64,000 bases of DNA from an uncultured Lachnospiraceae bacterium (lineage in GTDB: Bacteria; Bacillota; Clostridia; Lachnospirales; Lachnospiraceae): contig CACZBK010000022.1 in the NCBI GenBank assembly GCA_902779395.1, positions 62,001 through 126,000 on the forward strand. Direction: 5' to 3'. The notes beneath the pieces are model-generated. The model was not told the origin of the DNA, searched no databases, and saw only the letters and a program-made list of their open reading frames with translations. Both the position numbers and the translations under genes were made by a program. How positions within the stretch are numbered: the first letter of the stretch is position 1; each line of letters begins with the position of its first letter. Shown here in pieces: positions 2,624 through 63,752 of the stretch.

Positions 2624-5422
2624 TCAGGCATTGCCGATCTGATCCAAAGCTTCCCCTGCTGCCATAAAATCATAATCATGCAGCGCCATAAATACTTTTT
2701 CCAATATCTTATCGCAGGCTACACCGTTATGTGTAAGTCCCGCACTTTTATCCATTACCTTCTGGGCTTCATCAGAATCGAAATTATCGATAGCGCCGCG
2801 AAGCTCATTTATGAGCTGTTCCCATTCTCCGTCTTTTGCTTCTTCTCCCGCCGCTTCGCTTTCATTCTCCGTTCCCGGGATACAGCTTCTTATCATGGCA
2901 ACCACTTCATCATAACTTTTGATAAGATCTTCCTGCCCGGCTCTTATACGGTCTTCATCCGCTTTCTTGGCAGCTTCTTCCAGGGCTCTTGCTTTATCAG
3001 AAAGCTTATTGGCACCTATGGTCCTGGATCCGCTCTTTAATGAATGGACCGAAATACGGTAATTCTCTATATCCATGGCTTCATAAAAAGCACAGAGATT
3101 CTTTTTCTTTTCCGCTGATTCTTTTACGAATACTTTAAGCATATCCTCATAGAAAGCGGCATCATTCCCGCAAAATACGAGAGCCTGTTTTGTATCAAAG
3201 CCCAGCTCATCCAGCCTGTCACTTAAGCTCATATCCTCTTTAACATTCCCGGCGGGCTTTTCCTCATTCTTCCCATTCTGCGGCGTCAGATCGAATGCCA
3301 CTGCAGCAGATACTGTGAGTTTCTTGGCCGGAGCGGCAGATCCCTCTGCTTCGTCAAGCTCGCCACGCGCCTTAAATGCCGATGCAGGAAGAAGTTTCTT
3401 TAAGCAGCGTTCAAGAAGAAGCGGCTCTATAGGTTTGGCAAGGAATTCATCGAAACCTTCGCTTAAAAACATATCCCTCGCCCCGCTCACAGCATTAGCC
3501 GTAAGGGCGACAATGATGCAGTGCCTGTCAGTTCTTACGGTCTTTCTTATCCTCTGCATAGCCTCGATACCGTCCATCTCCGGCATCATATGATCCATAA
3601 AGATAAGATCATAGTCTTTCTTTAAACATTTCTTGATGGCTTCGGCTCCGCCTCCGGCGGTCTCCACCTGCATTCCGTACATACCCAGTATTCCCCTTGC
3701 CACTACAAGGTTCATGCTGTCGTCATCCACAACCAGAGTGCGTATCTCCGGAAGGTACGGCTTTTCTTCTTCCTTTGCAGAATAATCTCTCTCATTAAGG
3801 ATCTGAAGGATAGAAAATACCGTAAACGGTTTCTTTAAGGTCTTAACGGATCTGTCTTCTATCGGAGCATCATCACGTCCCATACTTATCGCAACATGAA
3901 GCGGATTCTCATACTGCTTTAAGTACTCCCTGCACTCCTCATATTCTTTTCTTCCGGCGAAAAGGTGCGTAAGGCGGTATCTGCTCATCACTTTTTTAAG
4001 CTCATCCATACTGATGCAATAGTGAACTTTGATCCCGAGTCCTTCGCCCAGATTTCTGATCATATCATTATAGAAATCCCGCACTGCGGGAACAGAATAC
4101 CTGTCAGGATAAAGGAAGCATCCCACACAGACTTCATCGGGCTTATCCACGCTCATGCAGCTTTCAGCATCACTGATACCCTGAGGTATGCTCACATGCA
4201 CGGTAGTACCGACACCCACTTCGGATTCTATATGCATGAAACCGTCCATGCTGCGTACCAGTCCCTGAACTACCGCAAGCCCAAGTCCTATACCGCCCAC
4301 GCGTCTGGACCTTCCCGTATCTGCCTGATAAAAATGCTCTGATAAGCGCTCCAGCTGCTCACGGCTGATGCCTATACCGGTATCCTTAACCTGTATGCAG
4401 AGGTTTATCCCGTAATCACGCTTAAGTGCATAAATACGGATATAGACACCGCCCTCTTTGGTAAACTTCATTGCATTATCTGCCAGATGTCTGATGACCT
4501 TTGATATCTTGGCGGCATCTCCGATAAGCCCGGACGGAAGACCTGCATCGATACCTATCACCAGCTCGTTACCGCTGTCACTCCACATAAAATCGAGTTC
4601 GGAAGACAGATCAAAGATCAGCGAACTGACCATATAATGATTCTTGCTGACCATAAGTCTTCCGGTATCTATTTCCGTATAATCCAGGATATCGCCTATC
4701 TGATCGGATAAGCGTCTGCCGGCACGTCTTACCGCGCTGAGACTCTTTTTCTTTTCCTCATCATGCTCATTTTCCTGCATCACCGCAGTGATCCCGGTAA
4801 CAGCATTAATAGGGGTTCTGAGCTCATGGGATACATTCGTAAGGAAATCCTCACTCCGTTTATTGGACTCCTCCATCAGCCCTATCACTTCTTCATAATT
4901 CTTACGGTCACGTTTTCTGCTGTGGATGGTATAGCGGAAAAGAAGCCCTGCGATCACCACCACCGCAAAATTCATAAAAAGCCTGGACCATTCAAGCGGA
5001 GTAAAATCGCTGCCTATAGCATGAGTAACAAAGATATGCCAGAATATTATGACAACATAATCGGCATAGAAAAAATAAATGATGAAATCCTCATCTACCA
5101 TTGTAAAAAGCATCAGTGTTATCAAAAGGATAAGCGGGATATCAAATAAAGAAGTTTCATGTATCCCGTAATAAAACAGGGCAAAGAGCATGACAAGAAG
5201 ATACATGTATATCCTGCCCCTTGGAGATACCGGCTGTTTAATATATATATACCACACAGCTATTATCGTACACCCCAGGATGGGTATGATCCATTTCTCC
5301 CAGTTCATCAGCAGGGTCTCCATACACAGGACCGCGGCCAGAAAACTGTAGACGATAATGATGATCAGATGAAAGACCATTACCCTCTCATTGTTTTTTG
5401 AATCTCCGATATTAACATCCAT
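2624..5422 (-). CDS. Hybrid histidine kinase with receiver and HPt domains
   Basis: A 932-residue membrane sensor kinase. Residues 15-165 form about six hydrophobic segments with no large extracytoplasmic loop. The HisKA segment carries LTNVSHELRTPINA with the phospho-acceptor His near 199, followed by an ATPase domain with VKDTGIGIS and GGIGLGLAVV. Residues about 440-560 look like a degenerate receiver. A canonical receiver follows (TLVVDDDSMN, LIFMDHMMPEMDG, FLAKPIE). The C-terminus has an HPt domain with the motif VHSLKSGSRTIGA. One protein thus has all the stations of a phosphorelay; the final acceptor could be the receivers of the two upstream c-di-GMP proteins in the same operon, which is inference. 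It starts 4 bases after the HD-GYP gene stop, implying coupled translation; no strong ribosome site is visible. Confidence 0.9.
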   Translation of the reverse strand: MDVNIGDSKNNERVMVFHLIIIIVYSFLAAVLCMETLLMNWEKWIIPILGCTIIAVWYIYIKQPVSPRGRIYMYLLVMLFALFYYGIHETSLFDIPLILLITLMLFTMVDEDFIIYFFYADYVVIIFWHIFVTHAIGSDFTPLEWSRLFMNFAVVVIAGLLFRYTIHSRKRDRKNYEEVIGLMEESNKRSEDFLTNVSHELRTPINAVTGITAVMQENEHDEEKKKSLSAVRRAGRRLSDQIGDILDYTEIDTGRLMVSKNHYMVSSLIFDLSSELDFMWSDSGNELVIGIDAGLPSGLIGDAAKISKVIRHLADNAMKFTKEGGVYIRIYALKRDYGINLCIQVKDTGIGISREQLERLSEHFYQADTGRSRRVGGIGLGLAVVQGLVRSMDGFMHIESEVGVGTTVHVSIPQGISDAESCMSVDKPDEVCVGCFLYPDRYSVPAVRDFYNDMIRNLGEGLGIKVHYCISMDELKKVMSRYRLTHLFAGRKEYEECREYLKQYENPLHVAISMGRDDAPIEDRSVKTLKKPFTVFSILQILNERDYSAKEEEKPYLPEIRTLVVDDDSMNLVVARGILGMYGMQVETAGGGAEAIKKCLKKDYDLIFMDHMMPEMDGIEAMQRIRKTVRTDRHCIIVALTANAVSGARDMFLSEGFDEFLAKPIEPLLLERCLKKLLPASAFKARGELDEAEGSAAPAKKLTVSAAVAFDLTPQNGKNEEKPAGNVKEDMSLSDRLDELGFDTKQALVFCGNDAAFYEDMLKVFVKESAEKKKNLCAFYEAMDIENYRISVHSLKSGSRTIGANKLSDKARALEEAAKKADEDRIRAGQEDLIKSYDEVVAMIRSCIPGTENESEAAGEEAKDGEWEQLINELRGAIDNFDSDEAQKVMDKSAGLTHNGVACDKILEKVFMALHDYDFMAAGEALDQIGNA

Positions 5423-6467: not shown

Positions 6468-7801
6468 TATTCATGGACCTTCTTTCTTAATATCTTAAGT
6501 TTTATCCTTCCTCCCGGAAGTCTGCTCTCATATTCGACACGTATACGCTCGGAAATGACTACAGCTTCTCCCTCATTGATCCCGGGCAGAAGCAGAAGTA
6601 CCTGAGTCGGTGAATATCTGGCCGTTACATCTCCGCGCCTTAAGCAGGTTGATAAAGCCTGGTCCAGCATTTCCACTGCCCTAGAATTATCATCATCCTT
6701 CGGAGTATAGCCATCCTCGGGGATCATGTTGATCAGAAATACCATCGACACATAGCGGTCTCTCTCCGAAAGACGGCTTAAGAAATTATATATATACGTA
6801 AATCCATGGAGATCCAGATCATAGGCACCGGCCTTTGCATCGGATCGTCTTAAAATCTCATGGAGATAATTAAGGTTCGTGATATTCTCCTTATGACTCT
6901 GCCCCGAAGAATCACTGTAGAAATGATAAGAATTCTTACCGTTCTGCTTTACGTAATAAAGAGCTTTATCTGCTGCGTTGTAAAGATCGGTAAAATCTTC
7001 ACCATCCTCAGGAGATATCGATATCCCGAGGGACACGGAAGAATTGGTCTCAAAACGGCAGTCCGCAAGCTTTCTGCACAGATCCCTTATGATATCTCCT
7101 GCGCGGCTGCCAAGACTTTCCTTATCCGTAACCCCCGGTACCCATATGACAAATTCATCGCCGCCTATACGCGCCGGGATATCTTCTTCGCCCGAATATG
7201 TTCTAAGCGTATCCGCAAACATCTTTAATATCTTGTCTCCGGAATCATGTCCGTAATTATCGTTTATGGCTTTAAAATTATCCATATCGATCATGAACAG
7301 AGCCCCCTGGGTTCCGTCCCTTAAGCACTCATCAACACAGCCGCCGACATACGCCCTGTTCCAGAGTCCCGTGAGCACATCTCTCTGCGATCTGTCCTTT
7401 ATCTCGTTTAATCTGTCTTTCAGCTCATTACGCTGGTCAAGATTATTAAAGATCTTCTCCAGACGGCTTAAGAGCACACTGGGTACAAAAGGTTTGGGGA
7501 GGAAATCCACAGCCCCGACTTCCAGACAGCGTGCTTCAGTGACCGCATCCTTTTCAGCTGAAAGGAATACTACCGGTATATCAGCTGTCCTGGGATCCGC
7601 TTTAATCCGGTTCATCACTTCGATCCCGTCCATAAACGGCATGTTCAGATCCAGAAGGATCAGATCCGGTATATTTATCGCCAGAAACTGCAGTGCCTGC
7701 TGTCCCGAAATGGTAGCGCTTATCTTATATTTATTGCTCAGTGTCATCCTGGCGCAGTCAAGATTTATCTTATCATCATCGATTATAAGTATATGTTTCA
7801 T
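6467..7801 (-). CDS. Response regulator with GGDEF diguanylate cyclase and a second degenerate GGDEF-like domain
   Basis: A 444-residue protein. The receiver at 1-120 has ILIIDDDKIN, LILLDLNMPFMDG and FLPKPF. A GGDEF domain at about 140-295 has DMDNFKAINDNYGHDSGD and the intact active site ARIGGDEF; the RxxD inhibitory site is absent (GEED there), so product feedback is probably missing. Residues 320-444 resemble another GGDEF fold without catalytic residues (RRGDVTARYSPTQVLLLLP where RxGGDEF would be). The protein should make c-di-GMP when its receiver is phosphorylated. It lies 19 bases after the receptor-cyclase gene and overlaps the next by one base. The degenerate domain assignment is by pattern only. 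Confidence 0.9.
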   Translation of the reverse strand: MKHILIIDDDKINLDCARMTLSNKYKISATISGQQALQFLAINIPDLILLDLNMPFMDGIEVMNRIKADPRTADIPVVFLSAEKDAVTEARCLEVGAVDFLPKPFVPSVLLSRLEKIFNNLDQRNELKDRLNEIKDRSQRDVLTGLWNRAYVGGCVDECLRDGTQGALFMIDMDNFKAINDNYGHDSGDKILKMFADTLRTYSGEEDIPARIGGDEFVIWVPGVTDKESLGSRAGDIIRDLCRKLADCRFETNSSVSLGISISPEDGEDFTDLYNAADKALYYVKQNGKNSYHFYSDSSGQSHKENITNLNYLHEILRRSDAKAGAYDLDLHGFTYIYNFLSRLSERDRYVSMVFLINMIPEDGYTPKDDDNSRAVEMLDQALSTCLRRGDVTARYSPTQVLLLLPGINEGEAVVISERIRVEYESRLPGGRIKLKILRKKVHE

Positions 7802-7820
7802 AAAAAAGATTCTCCGGTCA

Positions 7821-9689
7821 TCATCTTAACCGCTTTGAAGCGGCCTTATTATCATACATAGCCTTATCGGCACGTTTTACCATTTCTTCCATATCGCTGT
7901 TTTTATCAAGCATAGTCTCATAGACACCGCAGCTTGCATGGATCTCATACTCAAGATTAGCTGAAGCATTATATTCATCCAGCCGTTTTTTTATCTTTTC
8001 AAGTATCTGTTCCGAATTGCACTCACCCAGCACAAAGGCGATCATTTCATCTCCGCCGAAACGCAGGCATAATGCATCATCCGGACAGGCTGAACGCAGC
8101 GCGGAAGCCGTCACCGAAATAGCATTATCCCCTGCTGCATGCCCGAAAGTATCATTGATATATTTTAAGCCGTCCAGATCAGCCATGATAACTTTAACCG
8201 GCCTTGGATCATCTCCGAATTCTTCCTTAAGCTTTGCAAGTTCGTTGGTAAAACCCTGGCGGTTATATAAGCCGGTCAGATGATCATACTTATACATGTT
8301 CTCCAGCTTTTCGAACAGATACTGCTGATAGCGCATAGTAATAAAACCACCGATACCAAGGCTTAGATAATTGCTCACACTGGAGGTCTTTGCATATTCG
8401 GAGATATCATAGTTTGCAAAGGTGAATACCACATAACCCAGCGGTTTTTTCATGTAGTGCAGCAGATTAAATATCAGGGGATATCCGCTTTCAAGCTTCT
8501 TCTCGATCAGATGCGCCATCTGCTCGCCTTCGATATCCCTTATACCTCCTTCTCCGCCCGTCTCATAGATCAGCTTTGTTCCAAAAGACGTACTGCCATT
8601 AAGCTCTGCCTTGAAATAATCGATCTCACGTTTGAAGCAAAGCGGATTGACCATACAGAACATCTCACTGAGTTTACTGCCATAGATACCGGCTGCCATC
8701 TCCTCCGGTGTCTGGCTCATCTGCATGCGCGTCGTCATCTCATAGAACTGGAATATATCATCCTGATAACGGTATGATTTATCATTGACCATATCAAGGA
8801 TCATTATATTCTCGCTGCCTGCACTGCCGCATCCGCAGGATCTTCCGGTAATAAGCTTCGGCAATACCTTGTATCCCGAATCATGTATATCAGTTACAAG
8901 CATACGTTTTATTATCCTGGCAGTCTCATCGGCAAGCGCAACGGTATTACAGTCACCGGTAGTAACATCAGGATCGCATATCTTGGCTTCATCCGTACCG
9001 TCAAAGCCTGACACTATCACATCCTCAGGCACTCTGTACCCTCTCTCCTTAAGTACAGAGCATACATTGATAGCCATATAATCATTGGCACAGATAACAG
9101 CATCCGGTACTATACCTTTATCCAGAACCTCATTCATAGCCTTTCTGGCCGGTATGGCCCAGAACTCGCCATAACTGAGCATATCATCATTGAATTCCAT
9201 GCCGTTTTCAGCTATGACTTTTTTGAATACCTCTATCCTCTGGTCGGAAAAAGGATTATTCCTGATCCCGGCCATGAAATGCGGTTTCCTGGAATGATGA
9301 TCCTCTATTATATGACGCACAAGGGCTTCAAAACCCTTTTCAAAATCAAAACATACAGATGCACAGCCTTCATAACTGCCATCCGTAATAAGCACGGGAA
9401 CATTATAGCTCTTCGCTTTTTCGATGATATGCCGTGCCACTTTATGGCTTTTGACTTTCTCATCCATAAACAGGAGCAGATCTATCTTCCACATGGGAAT
9501 AATATCGAAGATATATGCCTCTGTCATATCGGCATCTTCTTCCCAGTAAAGATCGGTATTCAGAGCATAGACGAGCAGTCTGATCCCATTTTCCTGCAGG
9601 GATTCATTAAGTTTTTTTATAAAGGCATGATTCTGTATATCGAAGATCCTGGAAGTACACATCGCTACCGTTTTCTTGTTATTCTTCAT
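7821..9689 (-). CDS. LacI/periplasmic-binding-type sensor domain fused to GGDEF diguanylate cyclase
   Basis: A 622-residue protein without signal peptide or membrane segment. Residues about 8-285 match the type-1 periplasmic-binding fold used by LacI-family effector domains (ICANDYMAINVCSVLKERG, PEDVIVSGFDGTDEA), but there is no helix-turn-helix. A middle region links to a GGDEF domain at about 460-622 with MADLDGLKYINDTFGHAAGD and LRFGGDEM; the catalytic D and E are kept, F is M, and no RxxD inhibitory site is seen. It probably makes c-di-GMP in response to an intracellular sugar or related ligand (inference). The ATG at 9689 is preferred over an in-frame GTG two codons earlier because it is better spaced from AGAGGG. 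First gene of the five-gene signalling operon. Confidence 0.88.
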   Translation of the reverse strand: MKNNKKTVAMCTSRIFDIQNHAFIKKLNESLQENGIRLLVYALNTDLYWEEDADMTEAYIFDIIPMWKIDLLLFMDEKVKSHKVARHIIEKAKSYNVPVLITDGSYEGCASVCFDFEKGFEALVRHIIEDHHSRKPHFMAGIRNNPFSDQRIEVFKKVIAENGMEFNDDMLSYGEFWAIPARKAMNEVLDKGIVPDAVICANDYMAINVCSVLKERGYRVPEDVIVSGFDGTDEAKICDPDVTTGDCNTVALADETARIIKRMLVTDIHDSGYKVLPKLITGRSCGCGSAGSENIMILDMVNDKSYRYQDDIFQFYEMTTRMQMSQTPEEMAAGIYGSKLSEMFCMVNPLCFKREIDYFKAELNGSTSFGTKLIYETGGEGGIRDIEGEQMAHLIEKKLESGYPLIFNLLHYMKKPLGYVVFTFANYDISEYAKTSSVSNYLSLGIGGFITMRYQQYLFEKLENMYKYDHLTGLYNRQGFTNELAKLKEEFGDDPRPVKVIMADLDGLKYINDTFGHAAGDNAISVTASALRSACPDDALCLRFGGDEMIAFVLGECNSEQILEKIKKRLDEYNASANLEYEIHASCGVYETMLDKNSDMEEMVKRADKAMYDNKAASKRLR

Positions 9690-61020: not shown

Positions 61021-61139
61021 TTCAGTATCGCTATGGATCGGGCGATAACTATACAGCCTGCTTAAACGCTATAATATAGCCCAAGGCAAGAAAATCGAAG
61101 GTGCACGTAAAAAAACAACAGATCATATCGGAGCATTAT

Positions 61140-61667
61140 ATGACAGGCAGTCACAGGGTTATAATAGATACAGACCACATGAAATACGATTTCACTATCC
61201 GCAGGAATATTACGGTCATTCTTGGCGATAGCGGAAGTGGTAAAACTACTCTTGTTGGATATCTGCAAATGTATTCAAACCGCGGCCCTGCCAGCGGGGT
61301 CACACTGCAATCTGATGTCCCCTGTGTTGTATTTACTTCCGTAGCAGGGCTTTGGAAGCCATTACTAAACGAAATAAAACACAGTATCATCTTCATAGAC
61401 GAAGGCCAGCCGTTCATATTCACTCAGGATTTTGCCGAAGCTGTAAAGAACTCCGATAATTATTACGTTCTGATCACCAGACGTCCGATCCATAACCTGC
61501 CTTATAGCACGAAAGAGATCTATGGCATCCGCACGGTGGGCAGATACAGCTTTCCGGAAAAAGTCTATCAGGAGTTTTATCCTATATACGAAACTGAAAT
61601 AGAAAATTCACCCTCCCACAATACTATCCTTCTATATCCGAAAGATCCTGGAAGTTTTTCCGGATGA
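61140..61667 (+). CDS. P-loop NTPase of cassette copy 1, lacking the C-terminal domain
   Basis: 175 residues, not matched to a named family. Walker A is ILGDSGSGKTTLV, Walker B HSIIFIDEG, followed by YYVLITRRPIHNLPYS and KEIYGIR. It aligns along its whole length with residues 1-165 of the larger protein encoded 0.65 kb downstream (same start MTGS, same motifs at the same spacing) but stops where that protein enters its C-terminal domain; the 57 bases after the stop contain no remnant. It may be a natural stand-alone NTPase or the product of a deletion. ATG at 61140 has GGAG upstream and matches copy 2; an in-frame GTG at 61101 is less likely. Confidence 0.75.
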   Translation: MTGSHRVIIDTDHMKYDFTIRRNITVILGDSGSGKTTLVGYLQMYSNRGPASGVTLQSDVPCVVFTSVAGLWKPLLNEIKHSIIFIDEGQPFIFTQDFAEAVKNSDNYYVLITRRPIHNLPYSTKEIYGIRTVGRYSFPEKVYQEFYPIYETEIENSPSHNTILLYPKDPGSFSG

Positions 61668-61724
61668 CATCAAACAGGCACTCAATAAAACCCGTTAATC
61701 ACGGAAATAGAAAGGTCAATTAAA

Positions 61725-62162
61725 ATGCTGCATATCTGCTTCGGTGAAATGGAAAACGCAAACTACGGCCCTGATTGGTTCAAGGTCAATTATGATCCTA
61801 AATGGCTCAAGGATCCTTTTGTCCAGAAAATAATAAAAGATGTTGATAAATCCGAGTATGTAGACGGACTGATCATCAATAGTCCCGTACTAGGCCCCAT
61901 CCCTCCGGAACGGCTCTCCGGGGGTGCACAGACACTTATAATGATCTATGAAAAACCGGAACTCATCTTCGACGCCACCAGCTGTGGTGAAAACTGTGCC
62001 AAAATCCTTCATGAGATCGGTATGCAAAAGGATGTCACCATCAACCTCAATTATCTTATGAAATTCGATGATGTTGAATCTCTTAAAGTATATATAAAAA
62101 ACGAAGAACGAGTGATCACCGACATGGAAGACTACATAATGACCGCGGTGAAGTATGTGTGA
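61725..62162 (+). CDS. DUF4869 protein, cassette copy 1
   Basis: 145 residues, resembling the DUF4869 family of unknown function found in Clostridia. It starts MLHICFGEM and has IINSPVLGPIPPERLSGGAQ, LIMIYEKPE, the paired Cys in SCGENCAK and TINLNYLM. It aligns end to end with the protein at 63315-63752. AAAGG lies upstream. It follows the NTPase by 57 bases. Function unknown; constant pairing with the NTPase suggests a complex. Confidence 0.78.
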   Translation: MLHICFGEMENANYGPDWFKVNYDPKWLKDPFVQKIIKDVDKSEYVDGLIINSPVLGPIPPERLSGGAQTLIMIYEKPELIFDATSCGENCAKILHEIGMQKDVTINLNYLMKFDDVESLKVYIKNEERVITDMEDYIMTAVKYV

Positions 62163-62289
62163 GCCCTTCAAGCGATGTGAACTTTGCCGGAAAGTTACAC
62201 TAGCCCTCAATCATCCAATCAGCGAATACTGGAAACCGAACTACTTGAATAAACCTTTCCAGAATCAGGTCATTATAACATTACTATAG
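62155..62289 (+). CDS. Possible small ORF of 44 residues with CxxC
   Basis: An ATG overlapping the end of the copy 1 DUF4869 gene opens a 44-residue frame (MCEPFKRCELCRKV... to VIITLL) that fills most of the 154-base gap before the copy 2 NTPase. It has a CELC pair like a small zinc knuckle and a weak ribosome site. It could be a real small gene, a decayed remnant or chance. Confidence 0.3.
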   Translation: MCEPFKRCELCRKVTLALNHPISEYWKPNYLNKPFQNQVIITLL

Positions 62290-62316
62290 AAAACGAGAAG
62301 GTTATATCGAAGACTT

Positions 62317-63312
62317 ATGACAGGCTCTTATCATATCGTGGTGGTCAATGCCACCTCCAAATACGAACTGGATATCAAACGCAACATTACTATCTTAAAG
62401 GGTGACAGCGCCACCGGAAAGACGGTGCTGGTTGATATGATCCGAGATTACGTCTCAAATGGTCCGGATAGCGGCATAATGCTTAGCTGCGATATACCCT
62501 GCCGTGTCATTGACGGCAACACCTGGGAAGAACAGCTAAGTCCGATCAACAATAGCATTGTATTCATTGACGAGGGCAACCGTTTTGTTTCTTCTGAAGA
62601 ATTCGCACATTATGTACGCGAAGGCAAAAACTATTATGTGATCGTTACCCGTGAAAAACTCAGCAACCTGCCCTATAGCGTTACGGAGATCTATGGTATC
62701 CGCGGTTCAGGCAAATATAATGATATGGTACCGGTCTATCATGAGACCTACCACATTTACGAAGAGTATATCCGCAATCTGCAGGCTGGCGAATGCATCA
62801 CGCCGGATGTGATCCTTACGGAAGATTCCAATGCCGGTTATGATTTTTTCAACACCATTGCACATAACAATTCCGGCAATATTGAATGCCGTGCAGCCGG
62901 CGGCAAATCAAATATATATGGTTCTGTCATCCATGCTCATGACCATTCCGTCCTGATCATTGCAGACGGCGCTGCTTTTGGCGCTGAAATGGAACGCATC
63001 TGCGAACTGATCCATTCCGGTGCAGATCTTCACCTGTTCCTTCCTGAATCTTTTGAATGGCTGATCCTGAATTCCGGAGTCATCAAGGATATCTCCAAGG
63101 ATGAAATGGAACATGCCGAAAACTATGCTGATTCCGAAAAATTCTTCAGTTGGGAACGCTATTTCACCCATCTCCTGACACAAAATACCATCGGTACCCC
63201 GATGGCCTATAGCAAAACACGCCTTAACGATTATTATCGGTCATCCAATATCACCAAACGGATACTGGCAACGGTCCAAGGCATTGATTTTCACTACGAA
63301 AGCAGGGTTTAA
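62317..63312 (+). CDS. P-loop NTPase with C-terminal Toprim-like domain, cassette copy 2
   Basis: 331 residues. N-terminal NTPase (1-165): ILKGDSATGKTVLVDMI, NSIVFIDEG, YYVIVTREKLSNLPYS, EIYGIRGSG. The C-terminal half has HSVLIIADGAAFGAEMERI followed by LHLFLPESFEWLIL, an acidic-strand pattern that reminds me of Toprim folds, though this is only a visual impression. The rest is helical with no membrane segment. I do not recognise a named family; related Clostridia proteins exist by my recollection, of unknown function. ATPase plus nucleotide-handling domain would be compatible with a DNA/RNA-acting or defence role (inference). Confidence 0.75.
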   Translation: MTGSYHIVVVNATSKYELDIKRNITILKGDSATGKTVLVDMIRDYVSNGPDSGIMLSCDIPCRVIDGNTWEEQLSPINNSIVFIDEGNRFVSSEEFAHYVREGKNYYVIVTREKLSNLPYSVTEIYGIRGSGKYNDMVPVYHETYHIYEEYIRNLQAGECITPDVILTEDSNAGYDFFNTIAHNNSGNIECRAAGGKSNIYGSVIHAHDHSVLIIADGAAFGAEMERICELIHSGADLHLFLPESFEWLILNSGVIKDISKDEMEHAENYADSEKFFSWERYFTHLLTQNTIGTPMAYSKTRLNDYYRSSNITKRILATVQGIDFHYESRV

Positions 63313-63314
63313 TC

Positions 63315-63752
63315 ATGTTATCAATTTTTTATGGCGAAATGAAAGAAGCTATATATAATACTTCGGTATATTTTAAAAACACCTTCCGCAATGAATGGCT
63401 GGAAGATCCGCTTGTGATAGATATGATCAAAGATGTGGATAATTCTGAGGTATTGGGAAACGGCGCTATCAAAAGCCCCGTTTTGGGCGTGATCGCTCCG
63501 AATACTCTTTCCGGCGGGGTCAAAACGCTGATTCTGATCTATAAACAGCCGGAGAAGGTTTTCAACGCCTCCAACTGTGGGGATAACTGTGCCAAATGGC
63601 TGCTGAAATTAGGTGATATGATGGATATAACAATAAATCTCCGCCACCTTATGAACTTCGGCGACGGAGAGTATGAGATAAAAGTATTGGATGATAATAT
63701 GATTGCTCATAACAGAAGTGAATTGCTTTTGCTTGCTGGAAAATATCTATGA
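63315..63752 (+). CDS. DUF4869 protein, cassette copy 2
   Basis: 145 residues, same family as the protein at 61725-62162, with MLSIFYGEM, IKSPVLGVIAPNTLSGG, LILIYKQPE, NCGDNCAK and TINLRHLMNFG. It begins two bases after the NTPase stop, so translation is surely coupled. The two copies are clearly diverged (roughly 40-45 percent identical by eye), which argues for an old duplication and kept function. Confidence 0.78.
   Translation: MLSIFYGEMKEAIYNTSVYFKNTFRNEWLEDPLVIDMIKDVDNSEVLGNGAIKSPVLGVIAPNTLSGGVKTLILIYKQPEKVFNASNCGDNCAKWLLKLGDMMDITINLRHLMNFGDGEYEIKVLDDNMIAHNRSELLLLAGKYL

Follow-up and report, generated by a model that had tools for sequence, protein, structure and literature searches.

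What do two small gene pairs that lie head to tail in a Lachnospiraceae genome encode, and how did they come to stand side by side? We analysed a window of 64,000 nucleotides (contig CACZBK010000022.1 of an uncultured Lachnospiraceae bacterium, positions 62,001 to 126,000), in which positions 61140-63752 hold four plus-strand genes, arranged as two successive pairs of a P-loop NTPase (A) and a DUF4869 protein (D). The window's own genome has these two DUF4869 genes and no third. An initial annotation, made from the letters of the DNA, had described a tandemly repeated cassette here; the open reading frames (ORFs) and the Pfam family PF16163 bear out this layout, the motifs that it quoted are present in both NTPases and both partners, and its remark that the pairs form the only plus-strand block of the window agrees with the ORF list, at the level of the list rather than gene by gene. 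At the level of sequence, we show the evolutionary linkage of A and D with a third part, a TOPRIM-like domain (T), in several arrangements, together with preferential loss of T. We tentatively read each pair as a copy of a sporadic, transferable A-T-D module that would work as a PARIS-like switch with a TOPRIM-like effector, most likely in defence, and we place this reading a little short of an even chance.

Linkage of the NTPase, DUF4869 and TOPRIM-like parts

We collected the best 80 of at least 394 relatives from a search with an NTPase alignment as named loci. DUF4869 adjoins the NTPase in 78 of these 80; in the remaining two (L092 and L097), the NTPase starts 135 and 127 bases from the contig end, so that both loci are cut. 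Over the 80 pairs in these loci the median intergenic gap was 11 bp, with 73 gaps of 30 bp or less and 13 overlaps, and DUF4869 came first in 72 pairs while the NTPase came first in 8. The rarer order is that of the second pair in the window and of its five closest named relatives (L064-L068). The distances of the NTPase domain and of DUF4869 were strongly correlated over 100 pairs, with shared host ancestry left in (Mantel r=0.80; maximum of 2000 permutations 0.24). There was no constant third gene, and the commonest neighbour families occurred in 12 of the 80 loci. Moreover, in L312, from a genome of the same genus, the relative of pair 1 is a single protein of 315 aa in which the NTPase domain is fused to DUF4869. 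The proposal of the initial annotation that the two proteins form an interacting system is well supported by adjacency, by the distance correlation, by the occurrence of both gene orders and by this fusion protein; the two genes being mostly apart, which it had named as an outcome that would refute it, was not seen.

In full-length NTPases, the C-terminal part forms a domain of some 170 aa that is marked by the motifs TED.N.G..FF, GKSN, ADGAAFG, PESFEW and SWE. We aligned 75 of 81 candidates of at least 300 aa (six were excluded by hand) together with NTPase-2 (P0003) as alignment A4, and found K35, D85 and E86 of the N-terminal domain and E169, D170, D217, E247 and E280 of the C-terminal domain to be invariant in 76/76 proteins. 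This invariance holds for full-length copies only, because A4 was built from proteins of at least 300 aa. In the N-terminal domain the Walker motifs are intact, Walker B lies 50 residues past Walker A, and no ABC signature was seen in the chain.

A distant branch, comprising 24 loci reached from weak DUF4869 matches, carries the same parts in another form. In 16 of the 24, a separate T gene (shortened in some), a DUF4869-like gene and a short NTPase gene stand together; 12 of the 16 were recognized by phmmer from L063 (the same place as L177), and the other four (L160, L164, L165 and L168) were assigned by visual inspection of gene order and motifs. Stand-alone T aligned with the fused C-domain over 144 columns (hhalign E=5.7e-7; N-domain control 0.14), and the hidden Markov model (HMM) of the fused NTPase also matched T itself in two of the 12 phmmer-found loci (L156, 1.2e-7; L177, 4.4e-7). 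By these comparisons, T as a separate protein is homologous to the fused C-domain. D58, E92 and E155 of stand-alone T are invariant in 12/12, and its first Glu is kept in 9/12 and replaced by Asp in 3/12. The three genes occur in the orders T-D-A and D-A-T, the latter being the order of the common fused form. The parts therefore occur singly on three genes, in NTPase-TOPRIM fusions and once in an NTPase-DUF4869 fusion (L312), and on this sequence record the two kinds of fusion tie all three parts together. Among the other loci of the branch, four hold DUF4869 and the NTPase without T (L154 and L163, and also L161 and L162, which end at contig ends), and the remaining four (L155, L157, L173 and L175) hold fragments or nothing.

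Three further observations were made on this branch. Many of its T proteins (alignment A6) carry, towards the C terminus, a GECW...CC motif and further Cys residues, which possibly represent a candidate metal site and are absent from the fused form. Its NTPases (alignment A7) have a Walker B of D-N-A-D rather than D-E, with Asn after the Walker B Asp in 18/19, which suggests a different hydrolysis mode there. At L163, a locus without T, a 211-aa ORF occupies the T position (2729-3361), with a weak PADLOC DarT match at E=0.013 and no Pfam match, so an effector swap is possible.

We then compared the C-domain with 19 OLD TOPRIM regions by hhalign, which gave a score of 32.1 (E=2.5e-4, Prob 43%) over 33 core columns, with GK and D in register. 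The null scores were lower: 200 column permutations reached a mean of 12.6 and a maximum of 19.3, the reversed profile 16.8, and 26 unrelated real families a maximum of 20.3. When the alignment was forced to be longer, TED stood beside VEG and FEW beside FED. The Pfam model of OLD-like TOPRIM matched 2/76 single proteins (best E=0.0072), and RecR failed as a second TOPRIM yardstick, its set having two sequences and OLD against RecR scoring 17.3. DUF4435 yielded a single locus and was set aside. The TOPRIM motif DxD was not found with both Asp, position +2 after D217 being Ala in 75/76 and Ser in 1/76, and V, S or P in 12/12 stand-alone T proteins. Overall, the C-domain is probably TOPRIM-like, and it is possible that it is a nuclease.

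DUF4869-1 and DUF4869-2 belong to PF16163 (E=1.1e-38 and 6.9e-54; 132.5 and 181.6 bits against a cut-off of 28.9). Neither "DUF4869" nor "PF16163" was found in the literature searched, which described no function for it, and searches of PDB sequences with DUF4869 gave no usable match. Residues S66, G67 and G68 are present in 72/72 DUF4869 proteins and K70 in 71/72. The best matches of a 107-sequence DUF4869 profile were the ABC transporter signature (29.5, 17 columns) and SMC (26.2, 12 columns), followed by the next best control at 20.1 and OLD at 14.7. We rejected the idea that DUF4869 represents an ABC ATPase C-lobe, since matches of 12-17 columns are too short to claim homology. In two virus contigs, both of which may be fragments, DUF4869 occurs with no NTPase match anywhere on the contig: a 126-kb contig (L147) carries two DUF4869 genes (6892-7431 and 7668-8444), one of them extended at its N terminus by about 115 aa, and a 72.5-kb contig (L146:8001-8450) has a match of which the open frame, a 73-aa ORF, covers about half. 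It is conceivable, although we consider it a long shot, that DUF4869 would supply an LSGG-K-T signature of ABC/SMC type in trans and form with the NTPase an ATP-sandwich switch controlling the TOPRIM-like effector, a new trans-assembled class of defence in which the phage DUF4869 of L147, and perhaps of L146, would serve as a jamming decoy.

NTPase-1 and NTPase-2 gave weak P-loop matches and no Pfam match above cut-off. The best Pfam matches among 76 NTPase relatives were nSTAND3 and AAA_14 (E=4.1e-6); ABC_tran matched 35/76 members (best E=4.7e-5) and AAA_15 4/76 (best 0.067), both listed without cut-offs per member, and searches of PDB sequences with the NTPase returned P-loop and chance-level matches only. 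On the Ruminococcus albus plasmid pRUMAL02 (L328:6121-6996), the NTPase is annotated as "translation initiation factor 2", apparently a misnomer, and it is preceded by an IS21-family element and a short DUF4869 gene.

Two cassette lineages and the loss of the TOPRIM-like domain

Alignment confirmed that the two pairs of the window are related far beyond chance: NTPase-1 and NTPase-2 are 46% identical over 156 aa (E=5e-47), and DUF4869-1 and DUF4869-2 44% over 146 aa (E=2e-41). NTPase-2 is nearly twice as long as NTPase-1 because of a second domain (aa ~158-331), which is absent from NTPase-1; the HMM found no C-terminal TOPRIM-like domain there. The coordinates are collected in Table 1. The mechanical ORF of NTPase-1 opens upstream, at a GTG at 61101, and its length is counted from MTGS.

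Table 1. Coordinates of the two cassettes and their parts in the window
Feature	Position	Strand	Description
NTPase-1	61140..61667	+	175 aa from MTGS start; P-loop NTPase domain, Walker A GDSGSGKT, Walker B FIDE
Tail-like stretch, other frame	61642..61698	+	resembles the usual C-terminal tail of full-length NTPases; compared by eye with the tails of G002 and G153
DUF4869-1	61725..62162	+	145 aa; PF16163
NTPase-2, whole	62317..63312	+	331 aa ORF
NTPase-2, N-terminal P-loop NTPase domain	62317..62787	+	aa 1-157; Walker A 62401-62424; Walker B D85-E86 62569-62574
NTPase-2, C-terminal TOPRIM-like domain	62788..63312	+	aa 158-331; invariant E169, D217, E247, E280
DUF4869-2	63315..63752	+	145 aa; PF16163; starts 2 bases past the NTPase-2 stop codon

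In a BLAST comparison among 100 pairs, the best relatives of NTPase-1 and of DUF4869-1 came from the same genomes, G153 and G002, while those of pair 2 were L064 and L065 (79% and 78% identity for the NTPase, 86% and 86% for DUF4869). Quick trees of 56 rows, made without bootstrap, placed pair 1 with G002, G153 and the same-genus fusion for both genes (Shimodaira-Hasegawa-like approximate likelihood-ratio test, 99), and placed pair 2 nearest to L064 and L065, a grouping starred (98) for the NTPase domain and not starred for DUF4869. The different lineages in both trees indicate that the pairs are not a local duplication, and two cassette lineages, each apparently inherited as a pair, stand side by side. 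"Tandemly repeated" in the initial annotation thus describes the layout of the pairs, and the tandem duplication that it implied is not borne out by the BLAST ranking and both trees. L064 has one copy like pair 2 and no pair 1, about 2.5 kb from alcohol dehydrogenase and cytidylyltransferase genes of the same kind (names read by eye). L070 likewise holds two diverged pairs in one locus, and L135 has two closer copies, 92% and 99% identical.

To follow the parts through decay, NTPase copies were sorted by hand. Matches at E<=1e-8 were found in 58 of 397 genomes of the same family, weak split-branch matches included. We counted 41 full-length copies, 17 with the C-domain only broken or missing, four with the N-domain only affected and five with both. 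Breaks restricted to the C-domain thus made up 17 of 21, against 52.5% expected from length (binomial P=0.007); this test assumes that breaks are independent and proportional to length, and draft-assembly errors can mimic breaks. The counts leave aside L324 (contig end), L103 and L144 (C-domain broken, outside the survey) and distant, split-type or very short entries (G479:C132, G151, G076, G449, G396:C10:19044, G102:C1:2933099, G067:C29:171 and the weak split-branch rows). DUF4869 is full length in all 17 C-domain-broken loci, in L181 at a distance of 1.6 kb. One of the 17 is NTPase-1, and the tail-like stretch that lies out of frame at its end appears to be a sign of deletion of the TOPRIM-like domain. 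In another of the 17 (L311:1352-2182), the Lys position of the P-loop is replaced (GNRATGNT) and most of the C-domain is lost, with DUF4869 full length. The form without T may still work or may be in the course of being lost, and the findings agree with either.

Selection was assessed from ratios of nonsynonymous to synonymous rates (dN/dS). Between pair 2 and L064 these were 0.167 for T, 0.05 for the A domain and 0.053 for D, at a dS of 1.1-1.6, which is near saturation. In the close pair L064 and L065, which differ by few changes, they were 0.215 for the NTPase as a whole and 0.346 for its C part alone, with 0.228 for DUF4869.

Pair 2 looks complete in its parts. Pair 1, which has no T, would have been acquired separately; it may be decaying, or it may persist as a pair of A and D alone. 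The alternative that pair 1 is a pseudogene remnant only, and that two insertions came to lie next to each other by chance without any shared role, is a serious contender to which we give rather less than even chances. It fits with NTPase-1 lacking the TOPRIM-like domain and with the out-of-frame tail, and the loss is common to G153, where the domain is broken, and L312, where it is absent, the NTPase of G002 being full length. On the other side, NTPase-1 and DUF4869-1 are open and have kept their motifs, and they differ from L312 (71% identity for the NTPase, 77% for DUF4869) by proportions of nonsynonymous change (pN) of 0.185 and 0.138 against saturated synonymous proportions (pS) of 0.86 and 0.82, although part of this selection may predate the loss.

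Genomic context and comparison with known systems

The cassette is sporadic in distribution. DUF4869 is enriched in the window's family: PF16163 was found in 38 of 200 genomes there and, in a phylum sample of 398, in the window's own genome only. Beyond this sample, DUF4869 occurs in a Collinsella record (Actinomycetota), and loci labelled Faecalibacterium, Selenomonas, Treponema and Victivallales were also found, labels of metagenome-assembled genomes that may err. The NTPase was present on 3 of 72,556 plasmids and in 5 of 50,697 phage records; the same five records carry DUF4869, and the one that was looked up is marked "UNVERIFIED".

Two cassettes lie inside type I restriction loci. At L154, hsdM, hsdS and a DUF4238 ORF lie on one side of the NTPase and DUF4869 genes and hsdR on the other, and no T was seen; at L120, the cassette stands directly behind hsdM, and next come an ORF that matches HsdR in its C-terminal part and an integrase. 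Glycan genes surround the cassette in the window, in L064 and L066 (names by eye) and in the Collinsella copy (annotated). We scanned neighbours of 110-900 aa with PADLOC at E<=1e-10, taking 140 of the 319 genes that lie near the cassette (<2.5 kb) and 140 of the 210 that lie far from it (>5 kb). Near genes matched 239 models, including JetD, Cas3, and type I methylase and specificity proteins, and far genes matched 120, including PtuA, PtuB, Cas1 and AriA, with 1-4 members in each of the top models listed. We claim no enrichment, because the scan counts models rather than distinct proteins and near and far genes come from the same loci, which makes this a weak test. A gene family represented by L094:5874-7541 recurs in 8 of the 80 loci, four times within 20-261 bp of the cassette; this member is AAA-ATPase_like / PDDEXK_9 by Pfam, and the recurrence may just reflect high copy number.

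PARIS is described as a pair of AriA, an ABC-type ATPase, and AriB, a TOPRIM nuclease, and has been proposed as class 4 OLD (PMC10568477, PMC12409363); in the account of PMC12409363, AriB is kept inactive by AriA until a phage protein is sensed. As far as these accounts go, PARIS resembles the cassette in combining an ATPase with a TOPRIM domain, separate or fused, in a small module (PMC10568477, PMC12409363). In contrast, the NTPase of the cassette is compact, shows no ABC signature and has DUF4869 as an extra obligate protein. PADLOC found no match to AriB for seven stand-alone T proteins or for NTPase-2, and an AriA match of one split NTPase (E=1.2e-4) was at P-loop level, among GajA, PtuA and others, so that homologues of AriA and AriB were not recognized. 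On T, PADLOC gave one Cas2 match (0.0055, in 1/7), and on DUF4869 none.

The OLD nucleases (class 1, Gabija GajA and retron class 3) are like the cassette in that its C-domain aligns with OLD TOPRIM at GK and D, and unlike it in their ATPases, which align at Walker A only (28 and 48 columns), and in the second Asp of DxD, which the cassette lacks; an N-terminal ABC ATPase of OLD type, with its signature, was not found. Membership in OLD or PARIS fails on the features compared, and the resemblance is one of possible working logic. A classical precedent for linkage to restriction loci is PrrC, described as genetically linked to EcoprrI (PMC2610378). The cassettes of L154 and L120 share type I restriction linkage with nucleases of the PrrC/RloC type, whereas restriction genes are not a common neighbour family of the cassette; the sequences were compared through PADLOC and Pfam scans.

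A possible ATPase-TOPRIM switch and its alternatives

By analogy with PARIS, A and D would together make up a regulatory complex that is controlled by nucleotide and restrains T. An intracellular trigger would release T, and released T would cut nucleic acid so that growth stops, most likely as a defence against phages or other invaders. The logic would be that of PARIS, an ATPase sensor with a TOPRIM effector, built on another ATPase and with DUF4869 as an extra obligate subunit. Restraint, trigger, nuclease action and defence are all steps that we infer. The defence role that the initial annotation had raised as a possibility gains some weak support from the two type I restriction loci and the OLD-TOPRIM-like C-domain, and finds none in the neighbour scan, where near and far genes gave no clear defence enrichment.

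That scan is one of several results that weigh against a defensive switch. No specific PADLOC model fits A, T or D, with A giving weak P-loop matches only, and among PHROGs neither A nor D has a match that goes beyond P-loop similarity. No Pfam family covers T, and searches of PDB sequences with T gave no usable match. The OLD TOPRIM match stands at Prob 43% over 33 columns, and a forced global alignment scores just 8.7; T1 alone gave no signal against OLD TOPRIM (14.4), nor did the C-domain against RecR (11.7, with a RecR set of only two sequences). The absence of the second Asp of DxD means that T may not be a nuclease, and the Asn that replaces Glu after the Walker B Asp in the split form means that the ATPase cycle may differ between branches. 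Some D-A loci are without T (L154 and L163). In four loci, T is intact and the NTPase is broken or was not found, indicating that T is not obviously toxic when free.

These four loci also bear on an explanation of the cassette as an addiction module of toxin-antitoxin type, in which T would be the toxin, A and/or D the restraint, and persistence would come from addiction and mobility. Such a module would account for a stand-alone unit of two or three genes in varied contexts with no constant neighbour, for the sporadic and sometimes multi-copy distribution (58/397 same-family genomes, weak and distant matches included), for the frequent decay of copies, in which the TOPRIM-like domain disappears and D stays, and for the few plasmids and phage-labelled fragments that carry it. 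We nevertheless consider it unlikely, because T persists in loci with a broken or missing NTPase, a simple antitoxin would not usually be an NTPase, and the acidic residues of T are kept in 76/76 full-length proteins. Somewhat less likely still is a signalling complex with a regulatory or housekeeping role, in which the TOPRIM-like domain would be a catalytically dead sensor, for example of a nucleotide or metabolite, and for which the glycan setting would be incidental or functional. The incomplete DxD, the purifying selection on A and D and the glycan genes around the window, L064, L066 and the Collinsella copy speak for such a complex; against it, no neighbour is conserved across the 80 loci, the sporadic and decaying distribution is unlike that of housekeeping genes, and the four invariant acidic residues would be difficult to account for if no metal were bound.

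Taken together, the A-T-D linkage connects DUF4869, a family of no known function, with an NTPase and with a TOPRIM-like domain and would give it a first testable role. It would also add a possible ATPase-TOPRIM system outside those built on ABC ATPases, and its natural fusions and splits can guide the choice of proteins for co-expression.

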